From NCBI GenBank assembly GCA_037976565.1, contig CP137682.1, positions 30,178,782 through 30,242,781 on the forward strand: DNA of 64,000 bases, written 5' to 3'. The DNA is from Mesocentrotus franciscanus (Eukaryota; Echinodermata; Echinoidea; Camarodonta; Strongylocentrotidae). Each line of letters opens with the position of its first letter. The first letter of the stretch is position 1. Below are positions 3,961 through 52,439 of this stretch, piece after piece. The position numbers and the translations under genes were made by a program. The notes under the pieces are model-generated. The model was not told the DNA's origin. It did not search any database and was given only the letters and a program-made list of their open reading frames with translations.

Positions 3961-3969
3961 GGGGTGGGG

Positions 3970-5985
3970 GGCTCTTTAAATTTGGACATAATTCAAAACT
4001 TATTTAAAGTTATAAATAGTGAATATTTGATGGCATACTTGCCCCAGAACGACAAATTGTTCCTGGGATCCCTTGGTGGAATAGTGGGAGGACACCTAGT
4101 CTTTCATCCCATGACAGTAAAAGTGGGACCAGTGGTCAAGTTTTACTAGCCCCACTCTTTTAAATTTGGACATAATTCAAAACGGGAGGTATAAATAGTG
4201 AATATTTGATGGCGTACTTGCCCGAAAACGACAGATTGCTCCTGGGAATCCCTTAGTAGAATTGTGGGAGGACACCTAGTCTTTCATCCCATGACAGTAA
4301 AAGTGGGACCAGTGGTCAAGTTTTACTAGCCCCACTCTTTAAATTTGGACATAATTCAAAACGGGAGGTATAAATAGTGAATATTTGATGGCGTACTTGC
4401 CCGAAAACGACAGATTGCTCCTGGGAATCCCTTAGTGGAATTGTGGGAGGACACCTAGTCTTTCATCCCATGACAGTAAAAGTGGGACCAGTGGTCAAGT
4501 TTTACTAGCCCCACTCTTTTAAATTTGGACGTAATTCAAAACGGGAGGTATAAATAGTGAATATTTGATGACGTACTTGCCCGAGAACGACAGATTGCTC
4601 CTGGGAATCCCTTAGTGGAATTGTGGGAGGACACCTAGTCTTTCATCCCATGACAGTAAAAGTGGGACCGGTGGTCAAGTTTTACTAGCCCCACTCTTTA
4701 AATTTGGACGTAATTCAAAACGGGAGGTATAAATAGTGAATATTTGATGACGTACTTGCCCGAGAACGACAGATTGCTCCTGGGAATCCCTTAGTGGAAT
4801 TGTGGGAGGACACCTAGTCTTTCATCCCATGACAGTAAAAGTGGGACCAGTGGTCAAGTTTTACTAGCCCCACTCTTTTAAATTTGGACGTAATTCAAAA
4901 CGGGAGGTATAAATAGTGAATATTTGATGACGTACTTGCCCGAGAACGACAGATTGCTCCTGGGAATCCCTTAGTGGAATTGTGGGAGGACACCTAGTCT
5001 TTCATCCCATGACAGTAAAAGTGGGACCGGTGGTCAAGTTTTACTAGCCCCACTCTTTAAATTTGGACGTAATTCAAAACGGGAGGTATAAATAGTGAAT
5101 ATTTGATGACGTACTTGCCCGAGAACGACAGATTGCTCCTGGGAATCCCTTAGTGGAATTGTGGGAGGACACCTAGTCTTTCATCCCATGACAGTAAAAG
5201 TGGGACCGGTGGTCAAGTTTTACTAGCCCCACTCTTTTAAATTTGGACGTAATTCAAAACGGGAGGTATAAATAGTGAATATTTGATGACGTACTTGCCC
5301 GAGAACGACAGATTGCTCCTGGGAATCCCTTAGTGGAATTGTGGGAGGACACCTAGTCTTTCATCCCATGACAGTAAAAGTGGGACCGGTGGTCAAGTTT
5401 TACTAGCCCCACTCTTTAAATTTGGACGTAATTCAAAACGGGAGGTATAAATAGTGAATATTTGATGACGTACTTGCCCGAGAACGACAGATTGCTCCTG
5501 GGAATCCCTTAGTGGAATTGTGGGAGGACACCTAGTCTTTCATCCCATGACAGTAAAAGTGGGACCGGTGGTCAAGTTTTACTAGCCCCACTCTTTTAAA
5601 TTTGGACGTAATTCAAAACGGGAGGTATAAATAGTGAATATTTGATGACGTACTTGCCCGAGAACGACAGATTGCTCCTGGGAATCCCTTAGTGGAATTG
5701 TGGGAGGACACCTAGTCTTTCATCCCATGACAGTAAAAGTGGGACCAGTGGTCAAGTTTTACTAGCCCCACTCTTTTAAATTTGGACGTAATTCAAAACG
5801 GGAGGTATAAATAGTGAATATTTGATGACGTACTTGCCCGAGAACGACAGATTGCTCCTGGGAATCCCTTAGTGGAATTGTGGGAGGACACCTAGTCTTT
5901 CATCCCATGATAGTAAAAGTGGGACCAGTGGTCAAGTTTTACTAGCCCCACTCTTTTTAATTTGGACATAATTCAAAACCGGAGA
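3970..5985 (+). repeat. Satellite array 1 (~179-bp unit, ~11 copies)
   Basis: Copies follow one another every 179 or 180 bases, counted from TTTTACTAGCCCC at 4141, 4321, 4500, 4680, 4859, 5039, 5218, 5398, 5577, 5757 and 5937. Most adjacent units alternate between CTCTTTTAAA and CTCTTTAAA, which explains the alternating spacing and implies a dimeric higher-order unit of about 359 bp. Each unit contains GGTATAAATAG on the + strand. The first unit (3970-4148) is clearly diverged and matches, inverted, the last unit of the array ending at 52437. The inner end breaks off after AATTCAAAAC near 5980. Confidence 0.95.
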
Positions 5986-17940: not shown

Positions 17941-18015
17941 GAACAGTTGAAATGTGTCTCTTTTACATGTCAACAACCGTAGTTTTCACAAAGAATTTGT
18001 GTTTCTTTTAAACAG

Positions 18016-19680
18016 AATGTTACCAGCATTTCTCGACGTCGTTGCCGCCAGAATCGTCTCCCCATTGTCAAGAAAAAGAGAAAACAAGTAGATTATCAGC
18101 AGATGAAGAATGTTTTCGGCAGGTACATTCTGTCATCTACAAATGTTTCGAGTGAAACAGCGTCGTCTGTATGGGGAACGATTTCGAGGGAAATTAATTG
18201 GTTTAATACTGAGTCTAACCGAAAGTATTTAAAATTCATATGGAGAGAAAACAGAGGTGGGGTAAGGGAACATACACAACGAATATGGAATAATTGTAAC
18301 ATTAATGAATACACAGTTAAAGACCATGGGACGACCAGTATGGAAGACAAAGTAGCTGATGAAGTAGAGGCGCAGGCCGAACAGGATTGGAATGTTGGAA
18401 TGTCCATCGAAAATGAACCCACTGATCAAGACCAAATCAAGACCAAGTCAAGACCACTGATCAAGACCCCAAGAACACGCAAAAGTGGGAGAAACTTGAA
18501 ACCCAAGAGGTTTTCAAGGGGTTGGGAAACCAGCAAAATTTGCGTTTGCCAGCGAACTTGGAAAGGCAGTGCTATAAGACCATCGGTAAAATGTGAATTG
18601 TGCCACGAATGGTACCACTTTGACTGTATAGATCTAGCGAGCTACGCTAACATAGACATGGATCAATATTATTTTTATTCTGGCTTCAGGGGGTGCAATG
18701 ATGGGGAGAAAGTGCTTAGAAGAAAGAAGACCCTGTTGCCCGACAATGCTGATGAGCCCCAATGCACCCTTGCAGATCAGGATAACGGGGGCGATCAGGA
18801 CAGTACGAACAATTCAACCTTCCATGAATATATAGATAATGGTCAAGATGAGACTGCTAGGTTCGACGAAGAAGTCCTCGAGAGTGACAGAAGTAAGGAT
18901 GAGGATGAAAGTAGTAAAAGTTCAACCTTTCATGAGGATATAGATGATGGTCAAGATGAAACGACTAGGTTCGACGAAGAAGTCCTCGATGAGAGTGACA
19001 GAAGTGAGGATGAGGATGACAGTAGTGAAAGTTCAACCTTTCATGAGGATATAGATGATGGTCAAGACGAGACGACTAGGTTCGACGAAGAGGTCCTCGA
19101 TGAGAGTGAAAGAAGTAAGGATGAGGATGACAGTAGTAAAAGTTCAACCTTTCATGAGGATGTAGATGATAGTCAAGACGAGACGACTAGGTTCAGCGAA
19201 GAAGTCCTCGATGAGGGTGACAGAAGTGAGGATGAGGATGACAGTAGTGAAAGTTCAACCTTTCATGAGGATATAGATGATGGTCAAGACGAGACGACTA
19301 GGTTCGACGAAGAAGTCCTCGATGAGGGTGACAGAAGTGAGGATGAGGATGACAGTAGTGAAAGTTCAACCTTTCATGAGGATATAGATGATGGTCAAGA
19401 CGAGACGACTAGGTTCGACGAAGAAGTCCTCGATGAGGGTGACAGAAGTGAGGATGAGGATGACAGTAATAAAAGTTCTACTTTCCATGAAGATATAGAT
19501 GATGGTAAATCAGACACATCACTGGGATCATTCCTTAAAAGTGTGCCGATTGACAAAGCCACTATAGGTGCTTGCATTGGAGAAGGGGTAGGTGATAGTG
19601 TAGTAAAAGAGTTTCGCATTCAGAGAAAGGCAACCTTTGCATACGCAAAGAACAGTGGACGAAAATGTGTAAAACTGTAA
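18016..19680 (+). CDS. PHD-finger and acidic-repeat N-terminal part of transposon polyprotein
   Basis: The first Met is at 18103, but the frame stays open upstream to a splice-acceptor-like CTTTTAAACAG ending at 18015 and encodes a basic stretch (RRRCRQNR, KKKRKQ), so an upstream exon is likely. Counting from Met18103, a PHD-type zinc finger occupies about 147-198 (C147, C149, C164, C167, H172, C175, C198). The seventh ligand position is Tyr192, so the finger is degenerate at its last pair. PHD fingers usually bind histone tails; here that role is inferred. Residues ~237-475 are six 37-aa repeats plus a partial seventh, rich in Asp, Glu and Ser, with STFHEDIDDGQDET as the core (DNA period 111 bp, 18815-19506). 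The frame ends in a stop at 19680 that overlaps the next frame. One extra A in the AAAA at 19672-19675 would join the two. Confidence 0.8.
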   Translation, partial: NVTSISRRRCRQNRLPIVKKKRKQVDYQQMKNVFGRYILSSTNVSSETASSVWGTISREINWFNTESNRKYLKFIWRENRGGVREHTQRIWNNCNINEYTVKDHGTTSMEDKVADEVEAQAEQDWNVGMSIENEPTDQDQIKTKSRPLIKTPRTRKSGRNLKPKRFSRGWETSKICVCQRTWKGSAIRPSVKCELCHEWYHFDCIDLASYANIDMDQYYFYSGFRGCNDGEKVLRRKKTLLPDNADEPQCTLADQDNGGDQDSTNNSTFHEYIDNGQDETARFDEEVLESDRSKDEDESSKSSTFHEDIDDGQDETTRFDEEVLDESDRSEDEDDSSESSTFHEDIDDGQDETTRFDEEVLDESERSKDEDDSSKSSTFHEDVDDSQDETTRFSEEVLDEGDRSEDEDDSSESSTFHEDIDDGQDETTRFDEEVLDEGDRSEDEDDSSESSTFHEDIDDGQDETTRFDEEVLDEGDRSEDEDDSNKSSTFHEDIDDGKSDTSLGSFLKSVPIDKATIGACIGEGVGDSVVKEFRIQRKATFAYAKNSGRKCVKL

Positions 19681-21257
19681 GGACGAGGTACTTCAAGAAG
19701 GGACAGTGGCACGAGCCATTCATTAAAGGGATAAAACAATCAAATCCGTATTGTGTCTTAATGATAAGACATCACCATGTGAGCACAGCCAAACAAAGAT
19801 TCCATCGTGGCAAATCAATACTGAATGCAGATCTTTACTGCAAGTTCGAAGATTGCCCCATCACTGCCAAACTGACCATGGACGGGAAGTTTAATGCTAG
19901 AGTTACGTATAGTCACGACGTCGTAATGCACCATTTAGGGGAGCAACGTGCAAGACCTATTCGTGGGACTGAGAGAGAGCATTTGAAAGGAATCTTCAGC
20001 CATGGCCAAAAGCCATTCAATGAATACCTCAGACGACTTGGAAAAAAGGATCCTGCTCACGTAGTCTTGGCTGGAAATTTCGATGGGATTGGGACAACCA
20101 AACAGGTACTCCGTCAAGTGTCGCATGAAGCTGGGACATCAAGAATCCTCGACAAGGATGAGCTCACGAGTCTCCACCTATTGAAGAGTAAGATGGAGAC
20201 TCAGACAAAGAACAAGAAAGTAAAAGGCTTCATACAACTAATAGCGGCATCACCCTCCTTCGTATTTTACTGGAGCGAGGAAGGTGTACGGTTGTGGCAT
20301 GACCTTTGCAAGAAGGATGTGGCCGTAATAGACGCAACCGGCAACGTTGTGCGCTCGGCAGGGAAGAAAAGGTACCTCTACTATGAGGTGTGCATAAGGA
20401 ACACTGTAGAAGGAGAATCCCCCATACCTATCATGGGTATGCTCAGCACAGTCCACACTGCAACCGTCATACGCTTCTGGATAGCTGAATTCAGACGATG
20501 TGAGAAGCTTCTGTTAGAGCATCAAGGGGTTTCTATTCCCCGTCAAATGAATATGGATAGAGCCATGGCTTTCATTGTTGCACTACTGGCCGAATTCAAC
20601 AATGAGTCTGTCAAGGAGTTCCTGGATCGCTGCTGGCGTATCGTGTCTGGCAATGCACTGGATAATGACATAGAGCAAAAGATGATCCCCCATGCCTGTG
20701 CCTTCCATGTGATGAGGGATGCAAAGAAATCATGCAAGAAGTACTATCCAGGAAATATGGAGTACGGATTGTACTCCTTCAGCACTATCCTCAATGCATG
20801 TTCCCTAGATGAAGTTGAAGAAGCCCTATTCGACATGGCTGTGGTATTGCAAGGCAGAAAACTAACACCAGAAGTGATTGAAGCGAGTGAGAGAATGCAT
20901 CAAAGGATCAATGATCTTTCGAAGGAAAGTAAAGACAAACTGAAAGATGATCATGTGTACAAAGCAAGTACAGAGGCCAGTGAAGATGGAATTTCCTCAA
21001 TGAACAAAACTGAAGAAGAGTTTTTTCATCTCGCCGAAGGCTCGCACTTCAGGAGCTGGGCTAAAAGAATCATTGAGCGTGCGAAGCTGAGCATTACACA
21101 GGGTGATAACACAATGGAAGACAACGGAAGATATGGACCCAGATTTCTGGAAGACATACAGAGGCTCCTGTTGCCTACACTCCCGCTCTGGTCTGCCATT
21201 ATGCTTGAGACCTTGGTAGACATGGTAGCTCGGCCCCATATGAGAGACACAAATTAA
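19665..21257 (+). CDS. MULE-like DDE transposase segment
   Basis: This is a 530-codon frame. From its first Met, residues ~57-92 hold C59-x4-C64 and a distal HDVVMHH, arranged like the FLYWCH/WRKY-type zinc fingers that start many Mutator-like transposases. The core has VIDATGNVV (candidate first catalytic Asp, D223), a second Asp in NMDRAMAFIVALL (D298) and the C-x2-H pair in ACAFHVMRDAKK (C345, H348). That is the MULE pattern. The third acidic residue is likely among E383-E386 but is not certain. Expected role: cutting and joining of the element's ends in the nucleus. The downstream end is a frame break: within the CCCC at 21233-21237, the reading in frame 2 (YERHKLTPG, SVQEGRFNQ) continues into the next segment. 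No overlap with a host gene is seen. The superfamily is tentative, but a transposase is much more likely than a host enzyme. Confidence 0.75.
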   Translation: MCKTVRTRYFKKGQWHEPFIKGIKQSNPYCVLMIRHHHVSTAKQRFHRGKSILNADLYCKFEDCPITAKLTMDGKFNARVTYSHDVVMHHLGEQRARPIRGTEREHLKGIFSHGQKPFNEYLRRLGKKDPAHVVLAGNFDGIGTTKQVLRQVSHEAGTSRILDKDELTSLHLLKSKMETQTKNKKVKGFIQLIAASPSFVFYWSEEGVRLWHDLCKKDVAVIDATGNVVRSAGKKRYLYYEVCIRNTVEGESPIPIMGMLSTVHTATVIRFWIAEFRRCEKLLLEHQGVSIPRQMNMDRAMAFIVALLAEFNNESVKEFLDRCWRIVSGNALDNDIEQKMIPHACAFHVMRDAKKSCKKYYPGNMEYGLYSFSTILNACSLDEVEEALFDMAVVLQGRKLTPEVIEASERMHQRINDLSKESKDKLKDDHVYKASTEASEDGISSMNKTEEEFFHLAEGSHFRSWAKRIIERAKLSITQGDNTMEDNGRYGPRFLEDIQRLLLPTLPLWSAIMLETLVDMVARPHMRDTN

Positions 21258-22272
21258 CTCCAGGAATAAGGTCACCATCTAAAACAACCAGTGTGCAGGA
21301 GGGACGTTTCAATCAGCTTAAAACGGTGATTCTCCAGGGAAAATCACGGAATCGTGTCGACGTTTTCTCAGAGAAGTTGAGGGAGACTACAAAGGCGGCT
21401 CAGACTCTCGCTCTCAGAGATGCAGTTAAGAAGAAGACAAAGAGAGCTAGGGGAAAGAAGACACATCTAATCGAAGAATCATGGGACAAAAAGGTTCGCG
21501 AACCTGATCATCTGCGAGACAAAAAACATGGAAAATATCAGCAGACCCCGACTAAGCCCATACCAGTCACCAAACCAGCGAGAACCAAGTCAGGTGCCAG
21601 AAATGATGAGGGGACGAAGTTTAACAAACGAAAAGGTACGCAAATGAGCGAGGGCGACGACACTCCTCCAAAGAGGAAAGAATATGAAAGGAAGGACTAC
21701 GAGCAGCGAAAACGTTCTTCCCATTCAGTACCTGACCTTGACAAAGGAGACGATGCTGACGTTCCAGTCACCAAACCCGCGAGAACCAAGTCAGGTGACA
21801 GAAATGATGAGGGGAAGAAGCATAATAAACGAAGAGGTACCTCAAGGAGCGAGTGCGACGACATCCCCCCAAAGGAGAGGAAAGACTACAAAAGGAAGGA
21901 CTACGAGAAGCGAAAACGTTCTTCCCATTCAGTACCTGACCTTGACAAAGGAGATGATCATGACGTTCCAGTCACCAAACCCGCGAGAACCAAGTCAGGT
22001 GACAGAAATGATGAGGGAAGAAGCATAATAAACGAAGAGGTACCTCAAGGAGCGAGGGCGAAGACATCCCCCCAAAGGAGAGGAAAGACTACAAAAGGAA
22101 GGACTACGAGAAGCGAAAACGTTCTATTCATTCAGTACCTGACCTTGACAAAGGAGATGATCATGACGTACCAGTCACCAAGCCCACGAGAACCAAGTCA
22201 GGTGCCAGAAATGATGAGGGGACGAAGCATAACAAACGAAGAGGTACCTCAAGGAGCGAGGGCGACGACATA
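21242..22272 (+). CDS. Basic repeat linker of the polyprotein
   Basis: Lys/Arg-rich, probably disordered region. After a helical-looking start (FSEKLRETTKAAQTLALRDAV) it has about four copies of a ~67-aa repeat containing PVTKPARTKSGDRNDEG, then RKDYERKDYEKRKRSSHS and VPDLDKGDD. The repeat word CCAGTCACC recurs at 21563, 21764, 21968 and 22171, i.e. spacings 201, 204 and 203. The 203 exposes a one-base loss: GATGAGGGAAG at about 22011 against GATGAGGGGAAG in the earlier copy. A second loss is in the CCCC near 22272. Correcting both leads straight into the protease domain. KRKR-type clusters could serve as nuclear localisation signals and DNA-binding tails (inference). The 334-codon frame at 21293-22297 covers most of this but starts on GTG and ends out of frame. 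Confidence 0.75.
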
Positions 22273-23054
22273 CCCCAAAGAAGAGGAAAGAATGTGAAAG
22301 AAAGGACTACGAGCAGCTAAAACGTTCTTTCCATTCAATACCTGACCTTGACAAGGGAAAATATGATGACATCCAGACACGGAGAAAGAGGCAAACAAGG
22401 ACGAGTCATGGAACACAGCGTTATCGCCCCCTTTCAAATTTCCAAAGCAACTGTTGGCTCAATGCAATTATACAATCACTGATTTCAACAAACGCTGCAG
22501 ATGCTCTCATACATGCACCCGATGAATCGTGGACGAATCGCCAGCACATGGAAATCATCCAATTCCTCCGGAAATACAAGACTAATGACGTCATCCTAGA
22601 GGAGGACATCGAAATGCTTTCGCGAGTACTCTGCCTGCCAGCAACCAGACACAAAGGACTCATTTATGGGCGGCAAAATGACGCACATGAGTTAATATCG
22701 CAGCATGTTGGGCCTATGATGTCAAATATCGGACTTAATACGTTTGAAGTGGAACAGTGTGTAGCATGCACAAATTGCAATGAAAGAACATTAATTAGGA
22801 GACATGAGTTCACAGAAATCATTGTACCGGTACTGCATGACTGGGACAATATCAATTTGCAGTACGAGGTGGACAGAGTTACGAGGTATCCTGATCTCAT
22901 AGAAGGGGGAACACCGTGTGACAAGTGCCATAATATTGGTCTACGGGTAACACAGAAGGAGATGAAGACTGTCCCTCAGTTTCTGATGGTTGTCATGCAG
23001 AGGAATCAGGGACGAGGAAAATGCTGGCACCGGTGGAACCCCCTGATGAGATAG
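22273..23054 (+). CDS. Ubiquitin-specific protease (C19) domain, first part
   Basis: The frame is open from the basic repeats. The Cys box reads NFQSNCWLNAIIQSL, with the catalytic Cys codon at 22452-22454 (USP consensus N-x-C-x-x-N). YGRQNDAHELI (22665-22694) is the QQDAHEF box. CVACTNC and CDKC are the two zinc-ribbon Cys pairs of USP fingers. A Met at 22548 is internal, since the Cys box lies upstream of it. The frame is lost at AAAA (23017-23020). The second copy in this window has AAAAA there and reads straight through into the His box. Expected activity: removal of ubiquitin from Lys-linked substrates. Confidence 0.85.
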
Positions 23055-24121
23055 TCATGACCTATTCTGGAGGAGCTGGTAATACCGAGAAGACGTGCCT
23101 TTTCCAGTTAAAGTCGGTAGTTGTACACAAAGGAGACACGTGTGACCAAGGGCACTATGTAACGATGGTGAGAGAACCCGCAGCAGAGAGTGGGTGGATA
23201 ATTTGTGATGACCATATCATAGAAACAGCACGACCTGAAGACATATCTGCAGTCTATGATCAGTGCTACATGATCATCTACGAACGCATGGCAGTAGTAC
23301 GACCGGACACAGGAGATTCAACCAACCGTCAGATACCAGTTCCAGGTAGTGGAACAGAGTTCTCGACATCAGAACAGCAGTTCTTTCATACCACAACCCC
23401 GACTGAGAGAGCGGATCACAAGAAACGACAGCGACGTAAATGTAAAAAAAGAAAAGAGTCTGCGGTGAGAGATGACGTCATAGAGGCAATCAAATTGAAC
23501 TGCCGAAAGAAACCAAATGCTGTCATGAGGCAAGTAAATAAAATTGCCATAAAGTACAGGGATATGCAGACACTGCTTGGCAGAAACTGGTTGAATGATG
23601 TCATCATAAACGGCTACCTTGAGATGATAGATTTGAAGTCGAGGAATGACGATGGTCAACCAAGAATATACCCTTTCTTCAGCCAATGGTACCAACAAGT
23701 AAATTCGAGAGGCGAGACGTCACTGCGCAGAATGGCAAGGCTCATTGATCTCGCAGAATGCGACTGGTTGCTCTTTCCAGTAAACACAGGTGTCCACTGG
23801 TACCTAATCGCCATTAACCCGAAGGAGAAGATGGTGGTATCGCTTGATTCGCTTCAAGGTGACAATGCCACAGAGATTGTTCTGGCAGTGCAAGTTGTAA
23901 GAAGCCTATGGAAAGAGAAATATGGCTTGTCATTTGACTGTCAAATGATGGTAGTACCGACTCCACGTCAGCACAACTCGGATGACTGTGGGGTGTACCT
24001 GTGTTACTTTGCGTATTACCTGAGTGTGGAAAAGGATGTTCGACGAATGCGGGATATAGATTCGAAGAAGTACAGACATACTATGATCCATAACCTGTAT
24101 AGAGGTTCTTTCACGTGCTAG
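23021..24121 (+). CDS. USP His box fused to Ulp1/SENP (C48) SUMO protease domain
   Basis: The segment opens with the end of the USP domain. GHYVTMVRE (His codon 23153-23155) followed by GWIICDDHIIE is the USP His/Asp box, and the domain closes with YDQCYMIIYER. After a basic linker (KKRQRRKCKKRK) comes a complete C48 peptidase: LLGRNWLNDVIINGYLEMI, GVHWYLIAI (His 23795-23797), VSLDSLQG (Asp 23846-23848), PRQHNSDDCGVYLCYF (Gln 23969-23971, Cys 23987-23989). All catalytic residues of both proteases are present. The stop at 24119-24121 ends the polyprotein. C48 proteases remove SUMO or process its precursor. USP and Ulp1 in one chain is unusual. Ulp1 domains are known in some transposons (plant Kaonashi MULEs). 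Confidence 0.9.
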   Translation: MLAPVEPPDEIVMTYSGGAGNTEKTCLFQLKSVVVHKGDTCDQGHYVTMVREPAAESGWIICDDHIIETARPEDISAVYDQCYMIIYERMAVVRPDTGDSTNRQIPVPGSGTEFSTSEQQFFHTTTPTERADHKKRQRRKCKKRKESAVRDDVIEAIKLNCRKKPNAVMRQVNKIAIKYRDMQTLLGRNWLNDVIINGYLEMIDLKSRNDDGQPRIYPFFSQWYQQVNSRGETSLRRMARLIDLAECDWLLFPVNTGVHWYLIAINPKEKMVVSLDSLQGDNATEIVLAVQVVRSLWKEKYGLSFDCQMMVVPTPRQHNSDDCGVYLCYFAYYLSVEKDVRRMRDIDSKKYRHTMIHNLYRGSFTC

Positions 24122-24559
24122 TTTTTAATAATGGCACCCATAGTCTCGCTTTGCTACACATGCGGGAAAACAACAACCAGTCGTATTCTGCGAAATCAAT
24201 GTTCATTGCAATTCTCAACTACTCAACACTGACGTCTCACCTCTCAAATGTATTTTTTTCTTCTTGTGGGGTGAAAATCTCAATAAGGGAGATAAAATAT
24301 TATTCGCAAAAAATGGGGTACAATCAAGTATGATGAGTAACGTCGTATTGGTGCATATTTATATTTTTTAACAATACATACACGTAGGTTGTACTTATTA
24401 ACCAGATAACAACTGGCAAGAGATTTGGAAGGTTTGGTAAATTATTAATAGGACCAAGGGTAAAAATTCAAATTATTATTTTTATTCTAATTTTTGTCAG
24501 GGTTGGCAAGGCCATTCACCGATAGCATAAAGGTCTTACCCTGAGTAAAACACAATATA
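24122..24559. other. 3' flank of the polyprotein gene
   Basis: No domain is recognised. AT-rich sequence is expected to hold the 3' UTR, but I see no convincing AATAAA close to the stop. Confidence 0.35.
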
Positions 24560-26480
24560 TCAATTTTTCAACATATTTACAGAAAGGTGGTAAAGGCATA
24601 TGTAGAAGACTGTGATGTTCAATATGGCTATCGCACTGATCACTCAGCCATCAGTATCAATATAAATCGCACAGTCAAAAGGAGAGGTCCACTTTTCTGG
24701 AAACTGAACACCTTAATAGCGATGCAAGCACACAATTATTAGTAACTACTCTACAAGAAAATGCGAGTGTGAATGTAGGCCTATGGAGTGTATGGGAATA
24801 TGTCAAGTTAAAAATGAATGAATTAGACTCTGCACCAGATAAAAGAAGCTTTAAATAACAGAAGATTTTTTTCTGATATATATGATATGTTATGATACGA
24901 ACTCGAGAGACTGTCACCGAACAAGAATGTTTAGAAGCGATTCAACCTACGACATGTGACAAATCACCAGGTTTAGACGGCCTGTCCGACATTTTTTTTA
25001 TCGGATTTTCTGGTACGCTATCATAGATATCTTATGCAAGGTCTGTAATGAGTGTTTTTTTAAGAACTTTGCTTCTCCATAGGGCTAATTATGTCCACGA
25101 AAAGATAAATAATAACCCTTCTTCCACCAAAAGATAAAAATCAATTAAATCTAAAGAACTGGTGGTCTATATCTTTATCATTTTAGCGAAAATTCTTGAC
25201 AATAGGCTCAAACATGTTTTGAAATCAATCATAAGTTGTGACCAGACGGGGTTCATAAAAAAGAGAGACACTGGTGAAAATACCAGATTATTCATAGATG
25301 TTATTGAATATTGTAAGAAGAATTGTGTGCCAGGTTTACCCTTCAATCAAATTTGAAAAAAAGCGTTTGATTTATTGCCTGGATGGATTTTATGTCCACA
25401 AATATTTCCAGTTGTGTTTCGAATAATGGCTATTCGTCACAACCATTTCAGATACAAGAGGTGTGAGACAGGGCTGTCGCCCTATCTTTTTTAGATTGAG
25501 GCTGAAGTTGTTAGTTTTATGGTGAAACAAAGTACTTTGATAAGAGTAATTGATATAGACGGGAGTGAAATTAGAGTTGGTCAATACGCATTATATATCT
25601 GTCTGCCGTTGAATTAAATCTTAGGAGAGGCTTCGATATTTTAGCCTTGTTTATAAACATTATTTTTTAGGGTTGAAGGTAAATGCTGAGAAAAAGTAAT
25701 ATTGTCTGATTAGGGCCTTATCAGATTACTTTTACTATCTTGGAATTTATATACCGCTAAGTGAGGATTACAACTTTCATAACTTGTATTTCAAGGCGAA
25801 GGTAAATGAAACAGATAGGTTAAATAAACTAAAAGTTTGGAGCTCGCATTATCTGTCTCTACTCAGTAAGATCACCGTAATACCAATTTTTTAATTATCT
25901 TTTAGCATTATTCAAGATCCATCAAATTTCTTTTTCGAATTACTACAGAAGAAGAGTTTTAAGGAATGGTAAAACTGATTGGATTAAGCGAAGGGTAATG
26001 TATAACATTTATATCGACGGTAGATGAAATATGCTGCATGTAAAAACATTTTTGTTTTTCCTCAAAATTACATGCGTGTAAAGAATTTTTTACAAGACAG
26101 ACATTGTTAGTGGAAAATGCTTGCGAAACATTTATTTGTTTCGAAAAGAATGGTGACACGTTTGTGTTTGACGGTAATTTACGTATGAAGGATGTGACAA
26201 ACATCTCATCTAGTTCTTTTTGGGCAGATGTAGTACTCAAAGCCTGGACACTACAATCCAGTTAAATATAAAGAAATTTTAGCTCAGCCAATTTGGAACT
26301 ACTCGTTCATAAATATAGCAGGAAAATTTGTTTTCTACAAAATATGGTATAACGCTGGTAGTGTAAGTGTTCAAGACTAAAAGAAAAATGAAAATTTCAA
26401 AAGTTTATTTTGAAGTTTGTAAAGACTATAATACAAATGTGTTACGTTCTCTCGATCTTTTTGCCATTGGGCCGTATGCA
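24560..26480 (+). pseudogene. L1/Tx1-like LINE relic (copy A)
   Basis: Read across frames, the + strand has DHSAISINI and GPLFWKLN (end of the endonuclease region), then TKSPGLDGL-like and NRLKHVLKSIISCDQTGFIK with NTRLFIDVIEY (RT). It continues with VRQGC (RT core), KVNAEKSNIV, PIWNYSFINIAGKFVFYKIW and a C-terminal FW-DVVLKAW. PIWNxxxIxIxGKxxFYKxWYxAG is characteristic of Tx1/L1-type elements. Numerous stops and frameshifts show it is dead. It lies between the polyprotein gene and the satellite, in the same orientation. Copy B is at 39192-41110. Confidence 0.75.
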
Positions 26481-26484
26481 TAAA

Positions 26485-28317
26485 AGTAAGTAATTGCTTT
26501 TACTACGATTTTTACTTTTCAAAAACTCAACTGAGATGGCGTAGTCCTAAATATTCATATTTTGAATGATAGCGCCGTAAAAACTAAAAACAACAACTTA
26601 TACATTTTATTTTTCGAACCAGATGTAAAAACTGTGATATATATATTTTACTCAGATTAAATCAGAAATTACATATTTGGTAAAAGTAGAAAACGTTATT
26701 GCTTTTTCTCAAGTCCAGTGCTAGTCCAGTGGGGGATGGTTTTCTCCCCACATTGATTCTTGATACTTCTATTGTAATTACACTAAGCTCATTTATTTAC
26801 TTTCATGCAGATGATGTTGTATCTATTTTCATGAGGTTTTGTAAATTCGTGTTATCAAATGCATAGGGTAAGTGATAAAAAAAACACTATACAACAAACA
26901 AAAAGTATTCAACATATTTACAGAAAGGTGGAAAAGAACATTTATAGATATGAAATAAATACCATCATCACCATGAGCATTTCAACGAGTAAAGTAACTG
27001 TTATAGATGGGTACTTCAGTTTTATTTGGTTATAGTGCATTCAATCAATGGAATATAGAAACTACATTTCAAATAGATCAATAATGGAAGCTGTTTTCAT
27101 CGACCATTCCATCTTGTTCAGTTCAAGTAGGCGTATATATATGATAAACTTTTAGTCTATACTTATATCAATCACTGTGAAATCTGAATACCCCAACCGA
27201 AGTGAATAAAAACATAGGCCTACATCGATGAAAAGCTAAATAGATATATCGAATATGAATAATCACAAATCAAGCTAATTTTCCTTTCAGTTTTCATGAA
27301 AAGGAGATCGAAATTTACCTCCCAAATACTAAAAAAAAGCTGTTAATTTCTTGAAGTCATTCATTGTAGACCTTTTCAGCTCGTGCTTACAGCCAGCCAG
27401 ATTAGCTCGCTCGAAAATGCAACGTCGTGACTTTGATGATAACGAAAGAATATTGTTACTGGCATGTTCAAATATTATGTATACTTTTAAACAAAGGTTG
27501 TTCTTGACAAACTGAGTGCTTGCTAGATATACCAACAAGTAATGTATACAAACTGGATTCAAAGTCTTGTATTTCATTGTTTAATAACAGGTTAATTGAA
27601 TTCCTTGTTACTAAGTCCCCAGGAAGAAACATTCATAAATTTGAATAACATAGTAAACGAACTATTCTTGGCGAATCTAACTTTTCTACATGCAAAGGCA
27701 TGCAAACCAAAGCATGCACACATGCATTATCACCCAGATGATCGGCTTTACTATTTAATATAATATATGTCGTCATCCACCACGCAGCAATTCAGGCCCG
27801 TTTGGAAGGGGATAAAAAAAACATTTCGAAGCTCTCGAGTTCGAGTATTTCGAAAGCAAATACTCTCTCCTGGTATTCAAGGAAAACGCATGCAGTTTGT
27901 ATTGCGGTATTCTGTAGCTTATGGGCTTTTCATTGATGTGTAATTTGTCTATTTCATTTTTCACTTTGGTTGGGATCTTTAAACATCAACTCTATGTTTT
28001 CCTTTTGATGGATATTCCGTCAAAAGGCCAATAAGTTTGTAGAATATTCTCATTTGCACTATCGTTGATATATTTTTCTTTCTTTCAAGACAAAATTATC
28101 AATTAACTATGCCTCTCTGTTAAAAGCAATATGTGAACATTCCATACACTATGATTCTTCTCCCATCAATTGTATTCCTTAGAAGGGACATTGTGTCCAC
28201 ATATGTATACCTGTGTAAATTACATAATAGGCCATAACACCACATTCACACTTTCCTCAATGAAACATTCTAATAAAGTTTGTTCTAACAGTATTCCATT
28301 TGGAATATTTTGTTGTT
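26485..28317. other. AT-rich noncoding stretch (copy A)
   Basis: No domain is recognised. A coding-looking frame (SCLQPARLARSKMQRRDFDDNE) lies at about 27385-27440 and is open for 73 codons only in copy B (41937-42158), where an A-run differs in length. I see no homology, so it is not called a gene. GCATGC words recur at 27695-27725. Confidence 0.35.
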
Positions 28318-29375
28318 AAGGGGGTATCTCAGTGAGCGGCGAATGTTTGCGAACTTTTCCTTTGTCACCAGCGGGAAATGCTTGCGAACGTAGCGAATTT
28401 GGAAGGTTCGTTAGAGTTCATCAGGGTTCGTAAAGAGTTGCAAAAAGTTTTTACTGTCGCAAAGAAACATACGATTTCAGGCCCATAACTAGGCGAGGTT
28501 CTGGGAGGTTCGAACGACCCTCCCTCGCCCCGCTGGCGAGCAGGGTCAGCTTGAAGAAAAAAATAAAGAAAGAAACAAGCTTAAAATACCCTCGCTCGCA
28601 TGTTCTTAATTTTAGGCATGTTATCATTTTCATCTCTACAATTAAATCATATCATTTTACAGAAATTTTTACGCTCCCGCCTCGTGCTCGCCTGTTTGTA
28701 TGCTTTTGTTTTGTTTTTTAAAGCGAGGTTATCATCATTTTTAGAAGGAATTAAAAATGAAGTTAGAAGTCTGAAGGAACCCCCCGCTTGAACAAAAAAA
28801 AACCAAGAAATAAAGACAAACAAATTAAAATACCCTGGTTTCAGGTTCCTAGGTAAATTTTTGCTCGCGCTTCGCACTCGCATGTCCTTATTTTTTAGGC
28901 ATGTTATCATTTTCAGAAGGATTTACAATGAAATCTAATCATTTTACAGGAGTTCTTTACGCTCGCCTGTTTGTTTGCTTTTTAAAATTTTTAAACAATG
29001 TTATCATTTATTTTTAGAAGCAATTGAAAAAAGTTAGCGCGCTCGCATGTTTTAATAGTAGGGGTTGTCATCATTTTCAGAAAGAATAAAAAAATTAAAA
29101 AAATAGAGGCAAAATGTGCTTCAATTGCACTACCTTTATTACAAAAGTCAAACTTTCTGCTCGAGCTTCGCGTTCGCAATGGCCAGTCCCGAAGAAAGGT
29201 CCTCTATTTCGAATGTCGTAACCCCCTCCCCCATAAAACAATTATAGGCACTGGCCTGTGATTGCGACTTTTACGATCTCTAACAAACCCCAAATTCGCT
29301 ACGTTCGCAAGGATTTGCCGCTGATGACAAAGGAAAATTTAGCAAACATTTGCCGCTCGGTAAGATACCACCTTT
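28318..29375. mobile_element. 1.06-kb non-autonomous TIR element (copy A)
   Basis: Imperfect ~95-bp terminal inverted repeats. The left arm starts AAGGGGGTATCTCAGTGAGC and contains CCTTTGTCACCAGCGG and GCGAACGTAGCGAATTTGG. The right arm is the reverse complement with ~15% differences and ends GATACCACCTTT. The interior is a decayed series of ~150-bp repeats with TTACGCTCGCCTGTTTG and TTATCATTTTCAGAAGG words. There is no transposase and no clear target duplication. It is repeated at 42961-44023. Confidence 0.75.
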
Positions 29376-29624
29376 GCTGGCGATGATTATTTGAAGTAAG
29401 ATGTGGTAATAGATGAAAATGGTAGTTAATAAATTTTGTTTTTGTTTTTAAATGATTCTTTTTATTCATGTATTGGTTTGCATATTGAAAATCAGTAAAA
29501 CACTTAAAAGAAAAGAGAATGGAATAAAAGATGAAAAAAACAAAATGATTCTTCCTAATCTGCAGGAAATTTCTCTCTTTTTTGCAGGTACTTCTGTTCA
29601 TTGAGTAGTAAATGAATCGACAGA

Positions 29625-29790
29625 GAGAGAGGGAGAGAGAGAGAGAGAGAAAGAGGGAGAGGGGGAAGTGTGAGAGGGCTGTTGAAGAATGGGGGGGGGG
29701 GTAAGAAATTTGAAATGATAGAAGATTGGCTAAATTATGATAATGCCAAGGAGGGAGAGGGAAAGAGAGAGAGAGAGAGAGAAAGAGAAG
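29625..29790. repeat. GA microsatellites (copy A)
   Basis: Two GA-rich runs (about 29625-29665 and 29752-29790) around a G-run. A - strand frame of 173 codons across this region is an artefact of the run. A CT run follows at 30083-30105, just before the satellite. Confidence 0.85.
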
Positions 29791-30136
29791 GTAGATGGCC
29801 AGTGGGTTCAATAAAGACATGGTAGATGGGAGGTGGTCAGATATGTAGCTAGTTGGTTTTAAAAAAAATGCCTATAACAGTTGTAATTGGAGCCAGTGAG
29901 TATTTTAATAACTTATGATAAAAAAATACAGATCTCTCTTTTTTTAAAAAACTGAGCTAATCTACCTATATGAATTTAAAGGCCAAAGCCACAAGTCTCA
30001 GAAGACCTCTATCCTTCTCCTATAGCTCTAGCTTGATATGATGGCTCTACATGCTTTCAAAATAGCATATTGTCTATATTTCACTCTCTCTCTCTCTCTC
30101 TCTTTTCCTTCACTCTTAATTATTATATATGGATTA

Positions 30137-33100
30137 GGTGTCCTCCCACAATTCCACCAAGGGATTCCAAACGAACAATCGGTAATTTTGGGGCAAGTAC
30201 GCCATCAAATATTCACTATTTATACCTCCCGGTTTGAATTACGTCCAAATTTAAAAGAGTGGGGCTAGTAAAACTTGACCACTGGTCCCACTTTTACTGT
30301 CATGGGATGAAAGACTAGGTGTCCTCCCACAATTCCACTAAGGGATTCCCAGGAGCAATCTGTCGTTCTCGGGCAAGTACGTCATCAAATATTCACTATT
30401 TATACCTCCGTTTTGAATTACGTCCAAATTTAAAAGAGTGGGGCTAGTAAAACTTGACCACCGGTCCCACTTTTACTGTCATGGGATGAAAGACTAGGTG
30501 TCCTCCCACAATTCCACTAAGGGATTCCCAGGAGCAATCTGTCGTTCTCGGGCAAGTACGTCATCAAATATTCACTATTTATACCTCCTGTTTTGAATTA
30601 CGTCCAAATTTAAAAGAGTGGGGCTAGTAAAACTTGACCACCGGTCCCACTTTTACTGTCATGGGATGAAAGACTAGGTGTCCTCCCACAATTCCACTAA
30701 GGGATTCCCAGGAGCAATCTGTCGTTCTCGGGCAAGTACGTCATCAAATATTCACTATTTATACCTCCCGTTTTGAATTACGTCCAAATTTAAAAGAGTG
30801 GGGCTAGTAAAACTTGACCACCGGTCCCACTTTTACTGTCATGGGATGAAAGACTAGGTGTCCTCCCACAATTCCACTAAGGGATTCCCAGGAGCAATCT
30901 GTCGTTCTGGCAAGTACGTCATCAAATATTCACTATTTATACCTCCCTTTTGAATTACGTCCAAATTTAAAAGAGTGGGGCTAGTAAAACTTGACCACTG
31001 GTCCCACTTTTACTGTCATGGGATGAAAGACTAGGTGTCCTCCCACAATTCCACTAAGGGATTCCCAGGAGCAATCTGTCGTTCTCGGGCAAGTACGCAT
31101 CAAATATTCACTATTTATACCTCCCGTTTTGAATTATGTCCAAATTTAAAAGAGTGGGGCTAGTAAAACTTGACCACTGGTCCCACTTTTACTGTCATGG
31201 GATGAAAGACTAGGTGTCCTCCCACAATTCCACTAAGGGATTCCCAGGAGCAATCTGTCGTTCTCGGGCAAGTACGTCATCAAATATTCACTATTTATAC
31301 CTCCCGTTTTGAATTACGTCCAAATTTAAAAGAGTGGGGCTAGTAAAACTTGACCACTGGTCCCACTTTTACTGTCATGGGATGAAAGACTAGGTGTCCT
31401 CCCACAATTCCACTAAGGGATTCCCAGGAGCAATCTGTCGTTCTCGGGCAAGTACGTCATCAAATATTCACTATTTATACCTCCCGTTTTGAATTACGTC
31501 CAAATTTAAAAGAGTGGGGCTAGTAAAACTTGACCACCGGTCCCACTTTTACTGTCATGGGATGAAAGACTAGGTGTCCTCCCACAATTCCACTAAGGGA
31601 TTCCCAGGAGCAATCTGTCGTTCTCGGGCAAGTACGTCATCAAATATTCACTATTTATACCTCCCGTTTTGAATTACGTCCAAATTTAAAAGAGTGGGGC
31701 TAGTAAAACTTGACCACCGGTCCCACTTTTACTGTCATGGGATGAAAGACTAGGTGTCCTCCCACAATTCCACTAAGGGATTCCCAGGAGCAATCTGTCG
31801 TTCTCGGGCAAGTACGCCATCAAATATTCACTATTTATACCTCCCGTTTTGAATTATGTCCAAATTTAAAAGAGGCTAGTAAAACTTGACCACTGGTCCC
31901 ACTTTTACTGTCATGGGATGAAAGACTAGGTGTCCTCCCACAATTCCACTAAGGGATTCCCAGGAGCAATCTGTCGTTCTCGGGCAAGTACGACATCAAA
32001 TATTCACTATTTATACCTCCCGTTTTGAATTACGTCCAAATTTAAAAGAGTGGGGCTAGTAAAACTTGACCACCGGTCCCACTTTTACTGTCATGGGATG
32101 AAAGACTAGGTGTCCTCCCACAATTCCACTAAGGGATTCCCAGGAGCAATCTGTCGTTCTCGGGCAAGTACGTCATCAAATATTCACTATTTATACCTCC
32201 CGTTTTGAATTACGTCCAAATTTAAAAGAGTGGGGCTAGTAAAACTTGACCACCGGTCCCACTTTTACTGTCATGGGATGAAAGACTAGGTGTCCTCCCA
32301 CAATTCCACTAAGGGATTCCCAGGAGCAATCTGTCGTTCTCGGGCAAGTACGCCATCAAATATTCACTATTTATACCTCCGTTTTGAATTACGTCCAAAT
32401 TTAAAAGAGTGGGGCTAGTAAAACTTGACCACTGGTCCCACTTTTACTGTCATGGGATGAAAGACTAGGTGTCCTCCCACAATTCCACTAAGGGATTCCC
32501 AGGAGCAATCTGTCGTTCTCGGGCAAGTACGTCATCAAATATTCACTATTTATACCTCCCGTTTTGAATTACGTCCAAATTTAAAAGAGTGGGGCTAGTA
32601 AAACTTGACCACCGGTCCCACTTTTACTGTCATGGGATGAAAGACTAGGTGTCCTCCCACAATTCCACTAAGGATTCCCAGGAGCAATCTGTCGTTCTCG
32701 GGCAAGTACGCCATCAAATATTCACTATTTATACCTCCCGTTTTGAATTACGTCCAAATTTAAAAGAGGGGGGCTAGTAAAACTTGACCACCGGTCCCAC
32801 TTTTACTGTCATGGGATGAAAGACTAGGTGTCCTCCCACAATTCCACTAAGGGATTCCCAGGAGCAATCTGTCGTTCTCGGGCAAGTACGTCATCAAATA
32901 TTCACTATTTATACCTCCCGTTTTGAATTACGTCCAAATTTAAAAGAGTGGGGCTAGTAAAACTTGACCACCGGTCCCACTTTTACTGTCATGGGATGAA
33001 AGACTAGGTGTCCTCCCACAATTCCACTAAGGGATTCCCAGGAGCAATCTGTCGTTCTCGGGCAAGTACGCCATCAAATATTCACTATTTATACCTCCCG

Positions 33101-36100
33101 TTTTGAATTACGTCCAAATTTAAAAGAGTGGGGCTAGTAAAACTTGACCACTGGTCCCACTTTTACTGTCATGGGATGAAAGACTAGGTGTCCTCCCACA
33201 ATTCCACTAAGGGATTCCCAGGAGCAATCTGTCGTTCTCGGGCAAGTACGCCATCAAATATTCACTATTTATACCTCCCGTTTTGAATTACGTCCAAATT
33301 TAAAAGAGTGGGGCTAGTAAAACTTGACCACTGGTCCCACTTTTACTGTCATGGGATGAAAGACTAGGTGTCCTCCCACAATTCCACTAAGGGATTCCCA
33401 GGAGCAATCTGTCGTTCTCGGGCAAGTACGTCATCAAATATTCACTATTTATACCTCCCGTTTTGAATTACGTCCAAATTTAAAAGAGTGGGGCTAGTAA
33501 AACTTGACCACCGGTCCCACTTTTACTGTCATGGGATGAAAGACTAGGTGTCCTCCCACAATTCCACTAAGGGATTCCCAGGAGCAATCTGTCGCTCGGG
33601 CAAGTACGCCATCAAATATTCACTATTTATACCTCCCGTTTTGAATTACGTCCAAATTTAAAGAGTGGGGCTAGTAAAACTTGACCACTGGTCCCACTTT
33701 TACTGTCATGGGATGAAAGACTAGGTGTCCTCCCACAATTCCACTAAGGGATTCCCAGGAGCAATCTGTCGTTCTCGGGCAAGTACGCCATCAAATATTC
33801 ACTATTTATACCTCCCGTTTTGAATTAAGTCCAAATTTAAAGAGTGGGGCTAGTAAAACTTGACCACTGGTCCCACTTTTACTGTCATGGGATGAAAGAC
33901 TAGGTGTCCTCCCACAATTCCACTAAGGGATTCCCAGGAGCAATCTGTCGTTCTCGGGCAAGTACGCCATCAAATATTCACTATTTATACCTCCCGTTTT
34001 GAATTACGTCCAAATTTAAAAGAGTGGGGCTAGTAAAACTTGACCACTGGTCCCACTTTTACTGTCATGGGATGAAAGACTAGGTGTCCTCCCACAATTC
34101 CACTAAGGGATTCCCAGGAGCAATCTGTCGTTCTCGGGCAAGTACGCCATCAAATATTCACTATTTATACCTCCCGTTTTGAATTACGTCCAAATTTAAA
34201 AGAGTGGGGCTAGTAAAACTTGACCACCGGTCCCACTTTTACTGTCATGGGATGAAAGACTAGGTGTCCTCCCACAATTCCACTAAGGGATTCCCAGGAG
34301 CAATCTGTCGTTCTCGGCAAGTACGCCATCAAATATTCACTATTTATACCTCCCGTTTTGAATTAAGTCCAAATTTAAAAGAGGCTAGTAAAACTTGACC
34401 ACTGGTCCCACTTTTACTGTCATGGGATGAAAGACTAGGTGTCCTCCCACAATTCCACTAAGGGATTCCCAGGAGCAATCTGTCGTTCTCGGGCAAGTAC
34501 GTCATCAAATATTCACTATTTATACCTCCCGTTTTGAATTACGTCCAAATTTAAAAGAGTGGGGCTAGTAAAACTTGACCACCGGTCCCACTTTTACTGT
34601 CATGGGATGAAAGACTAGGTGTCCTCCCACAATTCCACTAAGGGATTCCCAGGAGCAATCTGTCGTTCTCGGCAAGTACGCCATCAAATATTCACTATTT
34701 ATACCTCCCGTTTTGAATTACGTCCAAATTTAAAAGAGTGGGGCTAGTAAAACTTGACCACTGGTCCCACTTTTACTGTCATGGGATGAAAGACTAGGTG
34801 TCCTCCCACAATTCCACTAAGGGATTCCCAGGAGCAATCTGTCGTTCTCGGGCAAGTACGCCATCAAATATTCACTATTTATACCTCCTGTTTTGAATTA
34901 CGTCCAAATTTAAAAGAGTGGGGCTAGTAAAACTTGACCACCGGTCCCACTTTTACTGTCATGGGATGAAAGACTAGGTGTCCTCCCACAATTCCACTAA
35001 GGGATTCCCAGGAGCAATCTGTCGTTCTCGGGCAAGTACGCCATCAAATATTCACTATTTATACCTCCCGTTTTGAATTACGTCCAAATTTAAAAGAGTG
35101 GGGCTAGTAAAACTTGACCACCGGTCCCACTTTTACTGTCATGGGATGAAAGACTAGGTGTCCTCCCACAATTCCACTAAGGGATTCCCAGGAGCAATCT
35201 GTCGTTCTCGGGCAAGTACGCCATCAAATATTCACTATTTATACCTCCCGTTTTGAATTATGTCCAAATTTAAAAGAGTGGGGCTAGTAAAACTTGACCA
35301 CCGGTCCCACTTTTACTGTCATGGGATGAAAGACTAGGTGTCCTCCCACAATTCCACTAAGGGATTCCCAGGAGCAATCTGTCGCTCGGCAAGTACGCCA
35401 TCAAATATTCACTATTTATACCTCCCGTTTTGAATTACGTCCAAATTTAAAAGAGGGGCTAGTAAAACTTGACCACTGGTCCCACTTTTACTGTCATGGG
35501 ATGAAAGACTAGGTGTCCTCCCACAATTCCACTAAGGGATTCCCAGGAGCAATCTGTCGTTTCGGGCAAGTACGCCATCAAATATTCACTATTTATACCT
35601 CCCGTTTTGAATTACGTCCAAATTTAAAAGAGTGGGGCTAGTAAAACTTGACCACTGGTCCCACTTTTACTGTCATGGGATGAAAGACTAGGTGTCCTCC
35701 CACAATTCCACTAAGGGATTCCCAGGAGCAATCTGTCGTTCCGGGCAAGTACGCCATCAAATATTCACTATTTATACCTCCCATTTGAATTACGTCCAAA
35801 TTTAAAAGAGTGGGGCTAGTAAAACTTGACCACTGGTCCCACTTTTACTGTCATGGATGAAAGACTAGGTGTCCTCCCACAATTCCACTAAGGGATTCCC
35901 AGGAGCAATCTGTCGTTCTCGGGCAAGTACGCCATCAAATATTCACTATTTATACCTCCCGTTTTGAATTATGTCCAAATTTAAAAGAGGCTAGTAAAAC
36001 TTGACAACTGGTCCCACTTTTACTGTCATGGGATGAAAGACTAGGTGTCCTCCCACAATTCCACTAAGGATTCCCAGGAGCAATCTGTCGTTCTCGGGCA

Positions 36101-36913
36101 AGTACGCCATCAAATATTCACTATTTATACCTCCCGTTTTGAATTATGTCCAAATTTAAAAGAGGGCTAGTAAAACTTGACCACTGGTCCCACTTTTACT
36201 GTCATGGGATGAAAGACTAGGTGTCCTCCCACAATTCCACTAAGGGATTCCCAGGAGCAATCTGTCGTTCTCGGGCAAGTACGCCATCAAATATTCACTA
36301 TTTATACCTCCCGTTTTGAATTACGTCCAAATTTAAAGAGTGGGGCTAGTAAAACTTGACCACTGGTCCCACTTTTACTGTCATGGGATGAAAGACTAGG
36401 TGTCCTCCCACAATTCCACTAAGGGATTCCCAGGAGCAATCTGTCGCTCGGGCAAGTACGCCATCAAATATTCACTATTTATACCTCCCGTTTTGAATTA
36501 TGTCCAAATTTAAAAGAGTGGGGCTAGTAAAACTTGACCACTGGTCCCACTTTTACTGTCATGGGATGAAAGACTAGGTGTCCTCCCACAATTCCACTAA
36601 GGGATTCCCAGGAGCAATCTGTCGTTCTCGGGCAAGTACGCCATCAAATATTCACTATTTATACCTCCCGTTTTGAATTATGTCCAAATTTAAAAGAGTG
36701 GGGCTAGTAAAACTTGACCACTGGTCCCACTTTTACTGTCATGGGATGAAAGACTAGGTGTCCTCCCACAATTCCACTAAGGGATTCCCAGGAGCAATCT
36801 GTCGCTCAAAGGGCACGCCATCAAATATTCATATTTATACCTCCCGTTTTGAATTACGTCCAAATTTAAAAGAGTGGGGCTAGTAAAACTTGACCACCGG
36901 TCCCACTTTACTG
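30137..36913 (-). repeat. Satellite array 2 (~179-bp unit, ~38 copies)
   Basis: Same satellite as 3970-5985 but inverted, with unit order GTGTCCTCCCACAATTCCAC, GGGCAAGTACG and CTATTTATACCTCC on the + strand. The first unit (30137-30245) is diverged (CCACCAAGGGATTCCAAACG). Internal units differ mainly by single-base indels and by the ACCGGT/ACTGGT and TCATC/CCATC variants. The array ends at a 500-N gap, and its last units have extra errors, as expected at a contig end. Its true length is unknown. Confidence 0.95.
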
Positions 36914-44023: not shown

Positions 44024-44267
44024 GCTGGCGATGATTATTTGAAGTAAGATGTGGTAATAGATGAAAATGGTAGTTAATAAATTTTGTTTTTGTTTTTAAA
44101 TGATTCTTTTTATTCATGTATTGGTTTGCATATTGAAAATCAGTAAAACACTTAAAAGAAAAGAGAATGGAATAAAAGATGAAAAAAACAAAATGATTCT
44201 TCCTAATCTGCAGGAAATTTCTCTCTTTTTTGCAGGTACTTCTGTTCATTGAGTAGTAAATGAATCG

Positions 44268-44274
44268 ACAGAGA

Positions 44275-44310
<36 letters not shown>

Positions 44311-52437: not shown

Positions 52438-52439
52438 AA

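Follow-up and report, generated by a model that had tools for sequence, protein, structure and literature searches.

Plant Kaonashi elements, which are Mutator-like elements (MULEs), carry an Ulp1 protease as a passenger domain. MULE-type transposons with Ulp1 (peptidase family C48) are also described from hydra, lancelet, Arabidopsis, maize, rice and melon; we compare them by description only, and the accessible part of that source (as with all published systems cited here) mentions no ubiquitin-specific protease (USP) for them (PMC2836005). In the same text, Ginger1 transposases have a C-terminal Ulp1 or OTU protease, and Ginger1-9_HM has both Ulp1 and a PHD finger. The Trichomonas vaginalis protein XP_001314237.1 fuses a transposase_11 domain to Peptidase C19, the USP family (PMC2836005). 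Rehavkus elements, which are related to Mutator, are described with a PHD finger, 9-bp target site duplications (TSDs), terminal inverted repeats of 26–400 bp, one open reading frame and a minisatellite (PMC6446971), and the inverted termini of Rehavkus-1_TC contain 164-bp satellite units (PMC10218199). Here we analyse a 64,000-nt stretch of the Mesocentrotus franciscanus genome (CP137682.1, assembly GCA_037976565.1; hereafter the window, whose numbering gives all window positions). It holds a candidate DNA transposon with a gene that brings together a PHD finger, a DDE transposase, a USP and an Ulp1 protease. The genome searched carries bindin (PF02084, E 1.3e-71), a marker of sea urchins and their close relatives that none of 14 control genomes has, as expected of a sea urchin host.

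The gene was read from the six-frame open frames of the window and a Pfam scan of those frames. A preliminary description had placed, collinear on the + strand, a PHD finger, acidic repeats, a transposase core, basic repeats, a USP and an Ulp1 domain; open frames, Pfam, repeats and alignment all bear out this order over 17983–24121. The USP (UCH, PF00443) scores 34.3 bits in its N-terminal part (E 2.5e-8) and 38.6 bits in its C-terminal part (E 1.2e-9) against a cut-off of 23.9, and its Cys, QNDAHE, CxxC (zinc-ribbon), GHY His and Asp boxes are all intact, as had been claimed. The same holds for Ulp1 (PF02902; 68.4 bits, E 1.1e-18, cut-off 20.7), in which the H-D-Q-C residues are present. The PHD finger (PF00628), by contrast, lies slightly under its cut-off of 24 in the window (22.1 bits, E 1.6e-4), although it is above it in relatives. 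The acidic repeats are 6.4 copies of a 111-bp unit and the basic repeats 3.9 copies of a 203-bp unit. By sequence the Ulp1 piece is closest to SENP1 (E 1.7e-22), and its nearest relatives, SENP1/2, are SUMO proteases. A USP profile built from four relatives, with the window excluded, is closest to USP8 (E 1.1e-20), followed by USP2 and USP12/46. Profile and Cys/His/Asp residues together assign this domain to the USP (C19) family as a predicted deubiquitinase.

The claim of one chain holds for relatives of the window copy but not for that copy itself, which is spread over several overlapping frames. We regard the fusion as settled because uninterrupted relatives join PHD, transposase, USP and Ulp1 in a single predicted chain. 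One is a 2051-residue open frame elsewhere in the same genome (C1:38506509-38500354). Its PHD (26.5 bits) and C48 (25.3) pass their cut-offs when the protein is scanned whole, and a segment scan gives UCH at 96.5 bits; this frame may be a domesticated single gene. The other, P0006, came from a profile search of database proteins that scored the 8000 candidates sharing most words; its 1937 uninterrupted residues carry PHD (26.0 bits), UCH (89.3) and C48 (49.5), all over the Pfam cut-offs. Full-length relatives of the kind that the preliminary description asked for were thus found, and neither outcome that it named as refuting (transposase and proteases always in separate genes, or no USP and Ulp1 by profile) occurred.

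The same search gave three further database proteins: P0007 (1402 residues, incomplete; UCH 70.2, C48 45.2 bits), P0008 (351 residues of the transposase part) and P0009. The last is a 1866-residue Clytia hemisphaerica protein (UniRef A0A7M5UQC9) with the transposase core that goes by the database name ‘ubiquitinyl hydrolase 1’. Scanned whole, P0009 matched no Pfam family; scanned in segments it has UCH (64.8 bits) and C48 (21.6) above cut-off and a C-terminal PHD (18.2) below it, so that segment scans recovered here, as for the UCH of the C1 frame, what full-length scans had missed. A 1846-residue frame at C4:23475667-23481207 has PHD (26.9 bits) and UCH (77.5) in the 1517 N-terminal residues scanned, and its Ulp1 is split by frame breaks. 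Further searches of database proteins gave P0001–P0003 and P0004, a 1288-residue protein with PHD (33.1 bits, above cut-off) and transposase and without USP; its C-terminal Ulp1-like piece was seen by eye only, Pfam giving just Peptidase_C5 (E 0.065). In P0003 (391 residues) the C-terminal part of the transposase precedes the N-terminal part, as in a tandem or rearranged copy. A relative on C12 is mostly N. In P0006 (~1500–1700), P0007, C4 and C10 (L052/L035), USP and Ulp1 appear by eye to be separated by a second, degenerate USP-like stretch that lacks the catalytic boxes, and an F-box-like motif, also seen by eye, follows Ulp1 at the C-termini of P0007 and C4 (L043:1070-1885), for which Pfam gave no support.

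Across these families all three catalytic sites are preserved. In an alignment that represents the window by its frames joined with X, the transposase residues D24, D109, C156, H159, W328 and E378 are invariant in 6 of 6 sequences (the incomplete P0007 omitted), as are the Cys, DA.E, CxxC, GHY His and Asp of the USP (6 of 6; P0004 has no USP), and Ulp1 H95, D112, Q177 and C183 are invariant in 5 of 5 (frame-broken C4 omitted). Pairwise identity between families is 23–37% for the transposase, 18–41% for the USP and 18–30% for Ulp1. Because catalytic residues stay invariant between families only 18–41% identical, we take all three enzymes to be under purifying selection.

How, then, should the broken frames of the window copy be read? 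For every domain junction, the window or another genomic copy has an open frame that reads across it. The PHD to acidic repeat junction is open in the window itself, and that from acidic repeats to transposase in copy C11 (361 residues) and likewise in database protein P0002. Transposase and basic repeats are joined in C17b (337 residues) and C11 (210), basic repeats and USP in C11 (413), and USP and Ulp1 in C3 (531) and in the window's second contig (445 residues, 37417–38754, with the C-terminal part of the USP and Ulp1 unbroken). Moreover, because gap openings outnumber substitutions over the coding stretch in seven of the eight copies compared, many of the window's breaks are probably uncorrected assembly indels (gap openings versus substitutions: C3 19 vs 4, C1a 18 vs 2, C17b 5 vs 2, C1b 5 vs 1, C1c 5 vs 2, C20 2 vs 1, second contig 1 vs 0). 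The exception is C11: one of its pieces, which takes in repeats, has 60 substitutions against 15 gap openings, and the other 19 against 5. Weighing against assembly indels, some breaks are common to several copies.

The gene sits in a much larger unit. Positions 18016–24121, to which the preliminary description confined itself, take in the gene alone; the element begins at 3756, and the right arm can be traced to 52438 on a second, overlapping contig (Table 1). Each inverted end consists of a 220-bp tip and an array of 180-bp satellite units, and the arrays stand in inverted orientation. A special terminal unit lies exactly at both outer edges (3976–4019 on the + strand, 52395–52438 on the − strand). 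In the genome searched (773 Mb, 21 contigs) this unit occurs 17 times, mostly as inward-facing pairs; 14 of the 17 have the further 220-bp tip ending in GCCTGTGTC or a close variant, two have no tip, namely the right end in the window and the haplotig of that end, and the remaining one is internal. The satellite edge itself had been tried as the element end and gave no TSD, the true tip being 220 bp further out.

The 14 resolved ends show nine distinct flanks. A perfect 9-bp TSD is present in four of four testable insertions: C3, C11 and C20, each with both ends on one contig, and a fourth joined from halves scaffolded apart on C1 (0.0007 chance matches expected over 91 pairs). The elements span 15,439 bp (C3), 26,650 bp (C20) and 49,579 bp (C11, which may include assembly redundancy). 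Nine near-identical Ulp1 matches reduce to six insertions: five are C1a, C1b/c, C3, C11 and C20, and the sixth is a single locus that appears in triplicate around the window. Segmental duplication of the copies, suggested by shared ‘flanks’, was dropped as the terminal pattern puts those flanks inside the large element. Near-identical copies at different sites, differing by a handful of substitutions, indicate that the element is young.

Several copies are internally deleted, and all of these keep the USP-Ulp1 end. The missing window coordinates are 6257 to 19313 in C3, 7220 to 20015 in C1a and 8516 to 21820 in C20 and C1b. The C20/C1b deletion is identical at two insertion sites with different TSDs, and therefore the deleted form moved or was copied with its ends. 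The deleted forms at C20 and C1:1717243-1735242 are without PHD and transposase and retain satellite ends, basic linker, USP and Ulp1; they show only that the DNA moved need not encode the transposase. No further element gene appeared among the ten other window open frames scanned by Pfam, whose single strong match, to DUF455, falls outside the element.

Table 1. Features of the element and its gene in the window
Feature	Position	Strand	Basis
Outer tip of left terminal inverted repeat, 5'-GCCTTTGTCAAGTTGGCC... (GCCTGTGTC... at most other ends)	3756–3975	+	outward-ending homology to both C3 ends
Left satellite arm of terminal inverted repeat: 180-bp units, ~11 copies, the outermost a special variant	3976–5984	+	repeat scan, terminal-unit match
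Open frame 1, 565 aa: N-terminal region, PHD (~18541–18651), acidic 111-bp repeats (18799–19506)	17983–19680	+	open frames, Pfam, repeat scan
Open frame 2, 552 aa: zinc domain (WRKY-like in model), DDE transposase core, completed in the following frame	19599–21257	+	frames, alignment, model
First transposase D	20331–20333	+	alignment with relatives
Second transposase D	20556–20558	+	alignment with relatives
Transposase CxxH	20697–20708	+	alignment with relatives
Open frame 3, 362 aa: end of transposase, then basic 203-bp repeats (21563–22358)	21209–22297	+	frames, repeats, alignment
Third acidic transposase residue, E	21299–21301	+	alignment with relatives
Open frame 3b, 101 aa: basic repeats carry on in a different frame	22015–22320	+	open frames
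Open frame 4, 273 aa: N-terminal two thirds of USP (PF00443 ~22431–23033), QNDAHE box, CxxC	22233–23054	+	frames, Pfam, alignment
USP catalytic Cys	22452–22454	+	alignment with relatives
Open frame 5, 395 aa: C-terminal third of USP (PF00443 ~23015–23281; GHY His box, Asp), Ulp1/C48 (~23585–24082) with H-D-Q-C	22934–24121	+	frames, Pfam, sequence comparison
Right satellite arm to end of contig 1 (N gap 36914–37413)	30135–36913	+	repeat scan, self-comparison
Second assembly of 22784–36913 on contig 2, 98.8% identical	37416–51582	+	self-comparison
Right satellite arm on contig 2, ending in inverted terminal variant (52395–52438); outer 220-bp tip missing	44776–52438	+	repeat scan, terminal-unit match

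Inverted ends with TSDs at several sites are those of a cut-and-paste transposon. The preliminary description had called the transposase core MULE-like. In favour of this, the DDE core has CxxH and W between the second D and E, invariant in all six aligned sequences; a DDE core with CxxH is the described MULE/IS256 signature (PMC5225508, PMC7780238). Against it, no Pfam transposase family, including the MULE transposase profiles, matches by sequence in the window frames (E up to 1) or in seven relatives (E up to 10), and a profile of the transposase found no match in the PDB by sequence. An AlphaFold model of this part is of low confidence (mean predicted local distance difference test, pLDDT, 61.7); its best match is an IS256-family transposase and the next are WRKY-type zinc domains. 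The TSD length of 9 bp is the commonest in the MULE range of 8–11 bp, and the C48 domain with H-D-Q-C is the feature of Ulp1-bearing MULEs.

With Rehavkus as described, the element shares a PHD finger in the transposase protein (above cut-off in P0006, C1, C4 and P0004, below it in the window), the 9-bp TSD, a single open reading frame, a DDE core and satellite units in or beside the inverted ends; this likeness is drawn from published features. It differs in that the accessible text mentions neither USP nor Ulp1 for Rehavkus and lists arthropods and annelids as hosts, and in size, the copies here spanning 15–50 kb against 9.5 kb for Rehavkus-1_TC. Zisupton/KDZ elements are also large, and their protein can carry a ubiquitin-related extra, an F-box in one platyfish isoform; however, they have a CxC7 cysteine cluster, and USP, Ulp1 and PHD do not occur in the accessible text (PMC12062965). 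No KDZ or CxC family is among the Pfam matches of the window and seven relatives, although weak members can escape such scans. Tetris and other foldback elements share inverted ends with ~220-bp tandem repeats and 8–10 bp TSDs, but Tetris is non-autonomous and its transposase unknown (PMC4079207).

On balance we favour the reading that the locus is a young DNA transposon of Mutator (MULE)/Rehavkus type that moves by cut and paste. Its one recognisable gene would make a chain of about 2000 residues whose two erasers act in cis. The zinc domain and transposase would bind the element ends, where satellite units may serve as repeated binding sites (Galileo internal repeats have been cited as extra transposase-binding sites; PMC4079207), and the PHD finger would tie the complex to nucleosomes. 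Fixed to the transposase, the USP and Ulp1 would act in cis, taking SUMO and ubiquitin off that protein and off silencing or repair factors at the ends. The erasers may in this way shield transposase or ends from control by SUMO and ubiquitin, leaving the element expressed and the transpososome stable. The preliminary description had suggested such an escape from silencing or degradation, which we consider plausible. A transposase could benefit from erasers of its own because SUMO aids silencing and ubiquitin governs protein turnover and repair. Indeed, SUMO is described as promoting Argonaute- and piRNA-directed silencing in animals (PMC8131101, PMC7272611).

The main rival, which we consider unlikely, is that the erasers serve the DNA transaction, freeing repair or checkpoint factors, or else the post-transposition complex, of ubiquitin and SUMO and so steering repair of the donor gap and the 9-bp target gaps. 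A repair role has been proposed for the Ulp1/OTU domains of Ginger1 transposases (PMC2836005). No result here, however, links the proteases to repair factors, and this account overlaps in part with the reading we favour. The internal deletions in four copies (C3, C1a, C20, C1b) fit it, interrupted gap repair after excision being known to leave such deletions, but they are common also in elements without USP/Ulp1-type domains. The Ulp1-like and/or USP domain could instead be a processing protease that cuts the chain into transposase and other proteins. In favour of this are the great length of the chain, the low-complexity linkers that separate its domains, and the processing of polyproteins by C48-fold proteases in some viruses; yet the window Ulp1 is nearest to SENP1/2 and the USP profile to the cellular ubiquitin proteases USP8, USP2 and USP12/46, and we rate this role as decidedly improbable.

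MULEs do capture pieces of host genes (PMC6446971), and the proteases might on that precedent be inert passengers with no role for the element. Passengers would decay, whereas here the same order recurs in several families 18–41% identical and in Clytia, with invariant catalytic residues, which makes this explanation very hard to sustain. Scarcely any credence attaches to the possibility that the locus is no element at all, but a host gene or an assembly chimera in a duplicated satellite region. The assembly is indeed redundant here: a 14-kb overlap lies beside an N gap, and the locus recurs in inverted form with an unchanged flank. The copies also have long stretches in common with satellites. 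Against this possibility stand the nine different flanks of the 14 resolved ends, the perfect 9-bp TSD of each of the four testable insertions, and unbroken relatives from other records.

What appears new is the combination. The preliminary description knew of no described element with these domains, and a full-text literature search, whose scope left out subscription papers, Repbase and Dfam, found no paper in which a single transposase combines USP, Ulp1 and PHD. Partial precedents do exist in the accessible text of PMC2836005: MULEs with Ulp1 and a protist transposase with a USP were already known, so that the novelty would lie in their union with PHD in a single protein. Ginger1 has a Gypsy-integrase-like transposase, is 2.6–7.1 kb long and has OTU as its other protease instead of USP, whereas the Trichomonas protein has an IS4-type transposase_11, is from a protist and comes with no mention of Ulp1 or PHD (PMC2836005). 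Single proteases of the ubiquitin or SUMO type have long been reported in transposons, their role never put to the test. In the present case the transposase is joined to a PHD finger and two different erasers, the catalytic residues are kept over very long distances, and the element appears young; this makes it a concrete system for asking if host marks for silencing or degradation are removed enzymatically by a transposon. It is also a case of satellite DNA linked to the termini of a mobile element.

More tentatively, the families may form an animal-wide, Rehavkus-related lineage whose single chain unites a histone-reader-type PHD finger and a transposase with a self-contained dual eraser, deubiquitinase plus deSUMOylase. 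Unless it spread sideways, the lineage would date back at least to the split between cnidarians and echinoderms. It would attack two host defences, SUMO-dependent silencing and ubiquitin-dependent transposase turnover, and, if this is true, would be the counterpart in animals, at the protein level, of the anti-silencing factors of plant transposons. The Clytia ‘ubiquitinyl hydrolase 1’ is a warning that such transposon proteins enter databases as host enzymes.

A second family with transposase, USP and Ulp1 has several dispersed copies at C10, C15 and C7, and further Ulp1 places; no element ends were found for this family. It adjoins other tandem repeats, with 223-bp units upstream of the C15 copy.

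The assembly around the window copy has features of its own. Positions 22784–36913 and 37416–51582 flank a 500-N gap and are overlapping contigs of one locus set in series, so that part of the element is counted twice; the same locus appears again, inverted and with an identical left flank, at C17:30250486-30281281. Near-identical frames on opposite strands (59647–60144 and 62940–63437) surround a second N gap (60674–61173), where a contig end has probably been placed in the wrong orientation. At 1758–1950, which is 1.8 kb outside the end of the element and roughly 0.5 Mb into contig C17, the telomere-type repeat TAACCC is present in 31 copies and marks either an internal telomere repeat or a scaffolding seam. 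Finally, a DUF455 exon (PF04305; 57314–57628, − strand, E 7.1e-22) lies outside the element and probably belongs to a host gene.

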